Assembly (NCBI GenBank): GCA_021813085.1 | Contig: JAKAMA010000051.1 | Span: 1 to 10,488 of the forward strand | Reading direction: 5' to 3' | DNA: 10,488 bases | Origin: Chloroflexota bacterium | GTDB lineage: Bacteria > Chloroflexota > Dehalococcoidia > DSTF01 > JACRBR01 | Shown: piece by piece, positions 7,741 through 9,455 of the stretch | Layout: the number at the start of each line of letters is the position of its first letter | Numbering within the stretch: position 1 is the first letter of the stretch | Position numbers and translations under genes: made by a program | The notes under the pieces: model-generated | Seen by the model: only the letters and a program-made list of their open reading frames with translations | What the model was told of the DNA's origin: nothing | Database searches by the model: none

Positions 7741-7769
7741 TTGACTTTCTGGCGCCGGCGACGTAGCCT
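7741..7769 (+). promoter_or_regulatory. Promoter of the riboswitch/zinc-ribbon transcript
   Basis: TTGACT at 7741-7746 and TAGCCT at 7764-7769 are spaced by 17 nt. Predicted transcription starts near 7776, just before the riboswitch aptamer, so promoter and aptamer support one another. Confidence 0.65.
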
Positions 7770-7784
7770 GAGGACGACAACTGC

Positions 7785-7916
7785 ATAGAGCCGAACCCGC
7801 CCGGATCCGGGCGGGGCGGGGGAACCAACGACCTGGGGTGAATCGCGCGGCGACGCGCGTAGGCGAACTCCTTTGAGCCGAACCCGTCAGCTAACCCCGC
7901 AGGCATAAGGAGGAGG
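7785..7916 (+). ncRNA. Cyclic di-AMP riboswitch (ydaO/yuaA type)
   Basis: All conserved blocks of the ydaO aptamer appear in order: GCCGAACCCG (7790-7799), the GC-rich P2-side stem as the 20-nt palindrome CCCGCCCGGATCCGGGCGGG (7796-7815), GGGGGAACC (7818-7826), TGGGGTGAATC (7834-7844), a variable hairpin CGCGCG-GCGA-CGCGCG (7844-7859), GTAGGCGAAC, and the diagnostic GCCGAACCCGTCAGCTAACC, CCGCAGGC (7877-7904). The long-range pseudoknot known from the solved structures is kept: CTCCTT (7868-7873) with AAGGAG (7907-7912). These aptamers bind two c-di-AMP molecules and usually switch expression off at high ligand. Exact ends are uncertain by a few bases because the outer P1 pairing is weak. A terminator follows directly. 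Confidence 0.96.
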
Positions 7917-7923
7917 GTGAAAC

Positions 7924-7954
7924 CGGCTGAAGGTTCGCGCCTTCGGCCGTTTTT
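7924..7954 (+). terminator. Intrinsic terminator, expression platform of the c-di-AMP riboswitch
   Basis: CGGCTGAAGG (7924-7933), loop TTCGCG and CCTTCGGCCG (7940-7949) form a 10-bp stem with one G-U pair, followed by TTTTT (7950-7954). It lies between aptamer and gene. Its 5' arm can instead pair with CCTTTGAGCCG (7870-7880) inside the aptamer, giving a plausible antiterminator when no ligand holds the pseudoknot. Confidence 0.9.
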
Positions 7955-7986
7955 GTCCTCAGCGCACGTAGCCTTCGGAGGTCGCG

Positions 7987-8286
7987 GTGGCCATCGACTA
8001 CAGCCGCAGGAAGCAGGTCCGCAAGGGGGTGACGAAGGGGCAGTACGAAGCGATTACCGAGGCGATGCGGCTCATCGTCGAAGAGGACCGGGAACGCGGC
8101 ATCGACAGCTTGTCCGAGTTTGTCTGCGCCGCCTGCGCCCGTCCCCGCACGATGGTCGGTTCCGTCGAGTACGACGGCATCCGCCTCTGCAACGACTGCG
8201 CGACCGCGTTCGAGGTCGCGCGCGTGGACCACACGGCGGGTAGCTGTGCGGAGTTCGTGTCGGCGCGCACAGCCGGCCGGAACTAA
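7987..8286 (+). CDS. Small two-CxxC (putative zinc-ribbon) protein under c-di-AMP riboswitch control
   Basis: A 99-residue protein starting at GTG 7987, with GGAGG at 7977-7981, 5 nt upstream. Residues 1-40 are basic then helical (YSRRKQVRKGVTKGQYEAIT, then EAMRLIVEEDRERG). Residues 45-77 contain FVCAACARPRTMVGSVEYDG followed by IRLCNDCATAFEV, with Cys47/Cys50 and Cys68/Cys71, spacing CxxC-x17-CxxC. This looks like a treble-clef or zinc-ribbon fold and loosely recalls the ClpX N-terminal zinc finger, which ends in a similar C(D/N)xC hydrophobic helix. There is no AAA+ domain, signal peptide or membrane helix. A fifth Cys (87) is extra. It appears monocistronic: a cyclophilin gene converges on it. 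I do not recognise a family with a known function. Metal binding is inferred, and regulation by c-di-AMP follows from the leader. Confidence 0.85.
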   Translation: MAIDYSRRKQVRKGVTKGQYEAITEAMRLIVEEDRERGIDSLSEFVCAACARPRTMVGSVEYDGIRLCNDCATAFEVARVDHTAGSCAEFVSARTAGRN

Positions 8287-8319
8287 CGATCGACTGACAG
8301 GACAGCCTCCTCCTCCAAC

Positions 8320-8354
8320 GGCAAGGGCCGCCGAGCAATCGGCGGTCTCTTGCC
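8320..8354. terminator. Long hairpin between the convergent zinc-ribbon and cyclophilin genes
   Basis: GGCAAG (8320-8325) pairs with CTTGCC (8349-8354), enclosing CCGCCGA (8328-8334), a GCAA tetraloop and TCGGCGG (8339-8345). The GNRA loop and two-part stem make a stable structure on either strand. Neither strand has a proper U-run after it. Its place between two converging stop codons suggests a shared transcript-end structure. Confidence 0.45.
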
Positions 8355-8382: not shown

Positions 8383-9207
8383 TTAGGAGCTCAGGATGCT
8401 GATGCTGGTGATGCGTACGCCCGCTGGCGGGTTCTGCTGCGCCAGCGGGTCGCGCGGCGGCAGCTTCGACAGCACGTCGAGGCCCGAGAGTACCTTGCCG
8501 AACACGGTGTACTGCCCGTCGAACGTGGGTTCGGGTGTCGTCGTGATGAAGAACTGGCTCCCGTTGTTCGGCTGACCGGCGCCGGGTGGCCGCGCGGCCG
8601 CGAGCACGCCGGCGCTGTCGAAGCTCGATGCCAGCGTCGGCGTCGGCTCAGACGGCAGCGTGTACCCCGGCCCGCCTGTGCCCAGACCCGTCGGGTCGCC
8701 CGCCTGCACGAAGTGGACGGTGCCCTGCTTGTCCGCGATCACGCGGTAGAACGTGTTCCCGTTGTAGAACCCCTGCTGGGCGAGGAAGACGAAGTTGTTG
8801 ACAAGCTCCGGCGCCTGCTTCGGGAACAGCTCGACCTTCACGTCGCCCTTGTCCGTCTTGATGACGGCGGTGTACGTCTTGTTGAGGTCGATGCTCATCG
8901 GCGGCGGCGCCGCATACTGCTTGATCTCCGAGGCCGCACCGGTCGTGCTCGTCGCGCCCGCCTCCGGCGTCGTCCGGATCACGGGCTGGCCGCGCGGGCT
9001 GCTGCTGGTCGGGGTGTTGTTGCGCAGGAGCGCCGTGAAGCCGATGCTCCCGATCATGACGACAGCGCCGATGACGGCGAAGAGCTTGTAGTTGTGGAAG
9101 ACGCGGAAGAAGCCTTTGGGCCGCAGGTCGAGTGGCGCTGCGGACTCACCCTCGCGGTAGACCTTCGTGCGGCGTTTGCGCTGCACCAGTTGCTTCTTGC
9201 GTGGCAT
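8383..9207 (-). CDS. Membrane-anchored cyclophilin-type peptidyl-prolyl isomerase
   Basis: 274 residues. The N-terminus is very basic (MPRKKQLVQRKRRTKVYREG), followed by one hydrophobic segment at about residues 42-61, a Thr/Ser/Pro linker (62-105) and a cyclophilin domain at about 111-274. This predicts an N-in anchor with the catalytic domain outside. Family residues are visible: Arg155 in TFYRVI, Gln168 in VQAGDPTGLGTGGPGY, Gln218 and Phe220 in GSQFFIT, and TVFGKV. It lacks the usual Trp and has a loop insertion, as bacterial types often do. Likely job: folding of exported proteins by proline isomerisation. GGAGAGAGA lies 11-19 nt before the ATG, somewhat far. A TATGAT -10 box is at 9248-9243. 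The gene is divergent from the tRNA gene. Confidence 0.92.
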   Translation of the reverse strand: MPRKKQLVQRKRRTKVYREGESAAPLDLRPKGFFRVFHNYKLFAVIGAVVMIGSIGFTALLRNNTPTSSSPRGQPVIRTTPEAGATSTTGAASEIKQYAAPPPMSIDLNKTYTAVIKTDKGDVKVELFPKQAPELVNNFVFLAQQGFYNGNTFYRVIADKQGTVHFVQAGDPTGLGTGGPGYTLPSEPTPTLASSFDSAGVLAAARPPGAGQPNNGSQFFITTTPEPTFDGQYTVFGKVLSGLDVLSKLPPRDPLAQQNPPAGVRITSISILSS

Positions 9208-9380: not shown

Positions 9381-9455
9381 GCCCCCGTAGCTCAGTGGAT
9401 AGAGCGCCAGCCTCCGGAGCTGGAAGCACAGGTTCGAGTCCTGTCGGGGGTACCA
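9381..9455 (+). tRNA. tRNA-Arg (anticodon CCG)
   Basis: A full cloverleaf can be drawn: acceptor GCCCCCG (9381-9387) with CGGGGGT (9445-9451), D arm GCTC/GAGC, anticodon stem CCAGC/GCTGG with loop CTCCGGA and anticodon CCG at 9414-9416, a 4-nt variable loop, T arm ACAGG-TTCGAGT-CCTGT, then A73 and an encoded CCA (9453-9455). It reads the CGG codon. The first acceptor pair is a G-U wobble rather than G-C. A 12-nt palindrome, CCCGGCGCCGGG (9461-9472), follows without a U-tract. Confidence 0.95.

Follow-up and report, generated by a model that had tools for sequence, protein, structure and literature searches.

The stretch of DNA analysed here (10,488 nucleotides, hereafter the window) carries on its forward strand a c-di-AMP (ydaO) riboswitch aptamer (7779–7920), an intrinsic terminator at the position of the expression platform (7924–7954), a Shine-Dalgarno sequence GGAGG that can be read directly (7977–7981) and a small gene, here called A, which opens with a GTG start at 7987 and ends at 8286. 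The product of A has 99 amino acids, with a predicted N-terminal helix and a CxxC-x17-CxxC treble-clef-like finger. Past its stop codon lie a C-rich box, CCTCCTCCTCCAACGG (8306–8321, forward strand), and a hairpin of 15 pairs (8321–8353, forward strand) that marks the 3′ end of the unit. A gene for a cyclophilin-type peptidyl-prolyl isomerase (8383–9207, reverse strand; PF00160, E 1.4e-33) follows in convergent orientation, so that the window holds no further co-directional gene within short read-through reach; the cyclophilin gene is probably a conserved neighbour and not a riboswitch target. A tRNA-Arg (ccg) is located past it on the forward strand (9381–9455), and a tRNA is likewise found near the unit at the G001, G002, G004 and G006 loci.

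An Rfam covariance search matched RF00379 over the complete model (positions 1–134 of 134) with 96.2 bits against a cut-off of 38 (E 2.8e-22), which bears out the complete ydaO-type aptamer that a first-pass annotation had claimed from the letters of this DNA. The terminator of that annotation also stood, as did its GGAGG site with the 99-residue CxxC-x17-CxxC protein. The terminator consists of a stem (7924–7949) followed by TTTTT; one terminator-like hairpin with a T run was present in the leader against a shuffled mean of 0.3, and the stretch 7915–7960 folded with a z score of -4.4, none of 200 shuffles being equally stable. In the remaining eight of the nine leaders of A, a permissive search run without a shuffled control also recovered a hairpin and a T-rich stretch. 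When antiterminator duplexes were sought, 14 to 183 of 200 shuffles were equally good, depending on the leader, and none of the duplexes stood out. The class is described as an OFF switch in B. subtilis (in the part of a review consulted, PMC5575661). Of the promoter proposed at 7741–7769 on the forward strand (TTGACT-17-TAGCCT, 8 of 12 consensus bases), a strict consensus scan of the leader found no trace, but a looser scan recovered TTGAxx-17/18-(T/A)AnnnT at a similar distance 5′ of the aptamer in all 12 leaders, a score that 0 to 37 of 300 shuffles per leader also reached. Given this similar placement in every leader and the few shuffles that did as well, the putative promoter is probably real.

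Gene A represents a genuine family to which no named function is attached. Its four cysteines (C47, C50, C68 and C71) are all invariant among 20 aligned members, and the two nearest A genes compared gave dN/dS = 0.022/0.138, which indicates purifying selection. The AlphaFold model of the protein is confident (pLDDT 87.7, with residues 1–11 below 50) and shows strands at residues 44–46, 53–55, 60–62 and 65–67 and a helix at 69–80, i.e. two hairpins and a helix at the second CxxC. We read this model as a helix plus a treble clef, weakly GATA-like. Because the second CxxC begins a helix in the model, a treble clef fits better than the ‘zinc ribbon-like’ label under which the protein had been introduced. 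The GATA-type spacing (CxxC-x17/18-CxxC) is present in A, but the N-terminal helix is an addition to the GATA-type finger; sequence and structure scores against such a finger were both non-significant, other fingers scoring similarly, and the Pfam listings for A contained no GATA family.

A search of 393 genomes of the class, with 12 candidates scored per genome, yielded 17 copies of A in 10 genomes, a count that includes two weak copies (G043:C71, 9.2e-7; G041:C123, 1.2e-4). The aptamer lies directly 5′ of nine of these copies (those of G000, which is the window's own genome, G001, G002, G003 and G006, together with G041:C93, G038:C84, G071:C128 and the divergent G043:C71) including 5/5 copies in the window's family, and the cyclophilin gene is convergent beside A in eight of the nine. 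At the other eight copies no aptamer was found in the stretches scanned, even with relaxed filters, and no cyclophilin gene was found beside the seven of them whose flanks were examined. Distant relatives of A were detected in six genomes besides the window's own among 201 genomes drawn from the phylum, and the aptamer was absent from the stretches examined at all five of these loci that were scanned. That A homologues are preceded by the aptamer is thus true for part of the copies in the class and for none of the loci tested outside it, and the riboswitch is not the partner of the A family as a whole. Two unlinked paralogues (G041:C130 and G071:C94) lie on the same strand as, and about 80 and 120 bases past, a gene that looks response-regulator-like when read by eye. 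The distant relatives at L184–L188, elsewhere in the phylum and without an aptamer, end in the tail DKLMPSNEPC in four of five cases and in TLRPSNEPC in the fifth.

The box past A is identical in all eight units of the window's family. When these units are compared from 60 bases 5′ of the aptamer to the unit end, the longest exact match shared by all of them is this box of 16 bases, the blocks within the aptamer being shorter than 14 nt. Box and hairpin stand at the end of the unit in all eight family genomes examined, past the A stop codon in the five that have A, and the distance from aptamer to box is 381–386 bases with A and 52–69 bases without it. The last 15 bases of the box gave exactly one match per genome in 8/8 family genomes, always downstream of the aptamer and on its strand, and no match in 12 other relatives; a reversed control pattern gave no matches. 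The hairpin covaries. The eight sequences compared are related, two being nearly identical, and the pairs were taken from one of them; in this set 118 of 118 cells were paired and five of the 15 pairs showed double-sided changes, and the covariation score was reached by none of 500 shuffles; versions slid along the alignment paired in 32–59% of cells. The exact box was missing from the stretches examined at the other four aptamer-linked A loci (G041, G038, G071 and G043), so the box-hairpin element seems limited to the window's family. No Rfam small RNA family scored above its gathering score, CsrC, on the opposite strand of L199, reaching 26.7 bits of the 61 required.

Three of the eight units, from three genomes in two genera, are without A. 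The gene was not found in G004, G005 and G007 (84, 96 and 72% complete, respectively), nor was anything A-like found downstream of the corresponding aptamers (G004:C322, G005:C13 and G007:C123). These units contain aptamer and terminator, with CCTCCTCCTCCAACGG and the hairpin directly after the terminator; their aptamers score 98.5, 104.5 and 92.0 bits, and both the promoter-like site and a hairpin with compensatory changes are kept. The cyclophilin neighbour identifies the G004 unit as the same locus, and the correspondence of the G005 and G007 loci is based on aptamer and box. A conserved box with a terminator-like hairpin is therefore present independently of the ORF, and A, which had been presented as the only target, does not stand alone among the unit's conserved products, both being kept in its absence. 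As judged from these sequences, what stays constant in the window's family may be the RNA element, with the ORF optional, and the unit would then owe some or all of its function to the RNA.

We lean towards an explanation in which c-di-AMP, through a transcription-terminating riboswitch, controls a single short transcript that yields two products, the mRNA of A and a conserved 3′ RNA element. With c-di-AMP bound, the aptamer would fold and RNA polymerase would stop at the terminator (7924–7954). At low c-di-AMP, read-through would produce the mRNA of A, whose protein, with its N-terminal helix and Cys4 treble-clef-like finger, would most likely be a small metal-binding adaptor for nucleic acid or protein. 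Read-through would also produce the 3′ element, i.e. the CCUCCUCCUCCAACGG box and a hairpin that would end the transcript; the T run past this hairpin is short, which counts against this explanation, as do the want of a distinct antiterminator and the missing box at A copies outside the window's family. The box would most simply pair with purine-rich RNA, either at the ribosome-binding sites of other mRNAs or in G-rich stretches of its own transcript.

The sequence CCUCCUCC is complementary to Shine-Dalgarno sequences, and we tentatively raise the possibility that at low c-di-AMP the read-through RNA, with its anti-Shine-Dalgarno box, acts on the ribosome-binding sites of other mRNAs, the treble-clef protein being an optional partner. 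Such action in trans is favoured by the retention of the box without A and by the folding of the element alone, in which the box was mostly unpaired (stretches of 51–67 nt from four units). Against it, the box is hidden in whole predicted read-through RNAs, being mostly paired in 4/4 A-bearing units tried (of five) and, among the A-less units, mostly paired in one of three and partly open in the other two; the purine-rich 3′ tail of the aptamer offers a possible pairing partner in cis in 8/8 units (-16.4 to -22.4 kcal/mol, compared with -12.0 kcal/mol for the box with a consensus Shine-Dalgarno sequence); and two patterns searched in the eight genomes revealed no recurring ribosome-binding-site target for the box. 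One of these, GTTGGAGGAGG, occurred at 24 sites besides the box against 14 for its reversed control, and by our reading four of the 22 sites inspected precede a gene start, all four before proteins that read as secreted or lipid-anchored, a number too small to weigh. The other, TTGGRGGRGGRGG, occurred at five sites against five for the control.

The same pairing energies bear on a comparably doubtful alternative, that the box acts in cis on the G-rich tail of the aptamer or on the Shine-Dalgarno sequence of A and so tunes refolding, stability or translation. Tail pairing is open to every unit and is stronger than pairing with a consensus Shine-Dalgarno sequence, and the box is mostly paired in whole-transcript folds, as cis action would have it. 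However, the tail varies among the eight units while the box is constant, so that no compensatory change is seen; the A-less units have no A start to hide; and the box would be transcribed only after the terminator decision has been taken. Rather unlikely, in our estimate, is that the unit functions through protein A only, with an ordinary conserved terminator region in place of a functional box and hairpin and with A-less units that are decaying relics left by the loss of A. The hairpin is indeed terminator-like, and the order aptamer, A, isomerase also occurs without the box in other families. Yet a terminator needs no invariant 16-mer 5′ of its stem, let alone one that exceeds any exact aptamer block common to the eight units, and relics would hardly be expected to keep a promoter-like site, strong aptamers and a compensated hairpin in three genomes of two genera.

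A further alternative concerns the protein, which might be an iron-sulphur or redox protein resembling FtrD and not a zinc finger. Seven of 20 A members match PF10080 at E values up to 0.1 (best 1.3e-5), but the window protein itself scores 19.8 bits against a gathering cut-off of 26.3, has no long hydrophobic stretch by eye and, in the model, carries its second CxxC at a helix start as fingers do, and we regard this identity as improbable. That read-through serves as antisense RNA against the isomerase gene is very improbable indeed, for although this gene is convergent at eight of the nine A loci with an aptamer and also at A-less G004, the hairpin precedes it, and the 1.5 and 2.3 kb examined downstream of the A-less units of G005 and G007 gave no match to an isomerase.

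A diadenylate cyclase domain (PF02457), which would supply the ligand, is encoded in the window's own genome (G000:C251, E 1.2e-42). In a set of 60 genomes this domain was detected in 35 and the aptamer in 33; when the two tables are read together, the cyclase domain is present in 32 of the 33 aptamer-bearing genomes as opposed to three of the 27 without an aptamer. The window's genome (77% complete) contains four aptamers, which precede the A unit, a trehalose-6-phosphate synthase/phosphatase, a membrane glycosyltransferase-like protein and a member of a second small family, here called B. Trehalose-6-phosphate synthase, an osmolyte-synthesis target, lies directly 3′ of aptamers at G000:C266 (L053) and at 14 further loci that BLAST placed in the same group (15 of 67 other targets), a cluster in which the Pfam check covers the window genome's member only. 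Glycosyltransferase-like proteins of about 620 residues lie 3′ of aptamers at G000:C231 (L003), G004:C53 (L086) and 14 BLAST-grouped loci (16 of 67); the fragment in the window's genome is below the Pfam cut-off and its relative in G004 above it. At G011:C54 (L016), from another family of the order, the first 200 bases past the aptamer contain hairpins, CCCTCCTCCTC and a last hairpin that closes with TTTT, but no evident ORF, and this locus perhaps encodes a parallel riboswitch-led RNA. At G036:C7 (L084) hairpins come after the aptamer, then a strong ORF in antisense orientation, and the aptamer has no evident ORF to itself.

Family B comprises zinc-ribbon proteins of ~70 residues, unrelated to A, in which the tail QRRRQPSHGK is invariant (16 aligned members). 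One of them lies behind an aptamer in the window's own genome (G000:C134:3087-3529, L004), so A is not the solitary small Cys4 target for which it had been taken. Across the 60 genomes, 94 of the 96 aptamer matches were examined, and at 19 of these 94 loci B was the gene 3′ of the aptamer. Of the 23 genomes that encode a full-length B (E below about 1e-25; counted by hand), 19 had an aptamer-linked copy; the other four were rescanned and no aptamer was found. The aptamer was also upstream at 39 of 40 further B loci (L144–L183), which were taken, not at random, from 113 further full-length loci (again counted by hand). The one exception, G101, was the single locus sampled from a weaker-scoring subgroup of about 18 loci (E 1e-28 to 1e-25), and another genome of its genus, G036, belongs to the four that were rescanned; this subgroup is therefore probably without the aptamer, and 39/40 overstates the linkage for the B family as a whole. 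B is nevertheless a very common small target of the c-di-AMP riboswitch here. The gene after B encodes an ABM domain in both loci looked at (L004 and L100). In four genomes (L154, L155, L156 and L162), cobalamin riboswitches are located near the B aptamer unit in divergent orientation.

Known targets of c-di-AMP riboswitches, in the parts of the literature consulted, comprise transporters for K+ and amino acids together with genes for the cell wall or for osmotic functions (PMC7266159; PMC3766115), and the class is described as switching K+, osmolyte and cell-wall genes directly. The window resembles other RF00379 riboswitches in its complete aptamer followed by an intrinsic terminator, and departs from them in that its target is a small Cys4 protein with an RNA element instead of a transporter, cell-wall or osmotic gene. 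Here this class of aptamer is found again and again upstream of very small Cys4 proteins; in one family it heads a unit in which the longest stretch of perfect conservation is an RNA box with complementarity to Shine-Dalgarno sequences. Should the box act in trans, a single riboswitch would put many genes within reach of c-di-AMP, and, taken with family B, the proposed reading would have c-di-AMP govern a layer of small regulators in the Dehalococcoidia besides transport and osmolyte genes. Since the three A-less genomes separate RNA from protein, the question is directly testable.

The unit is a new variant of riboswitch control, of which we infer whatever goes beyond sequence and structure prediction. 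Riboswitch-controlled small RNAs are represented by Rli55 of Listeria and EutX of Enterococcus, which are under a B12 riboswitch and act on a protein. As in those systems, a riboswitch here would decide whether a short RNA is completed, and the A-less units have no ORF for A; the present unit differs in its c-di-AMP aptamer, its Shine-Dalgarno-complementary box and its optional ORF. Rsa-type small RNAs of Gram-positive bacteria carry a C-rich seed, and the window element is similar to these in that a C/U-rich box adjoins a terminator-like hairpin, but it matches no Rfam small RNA above the cut-off and its box may be structured.
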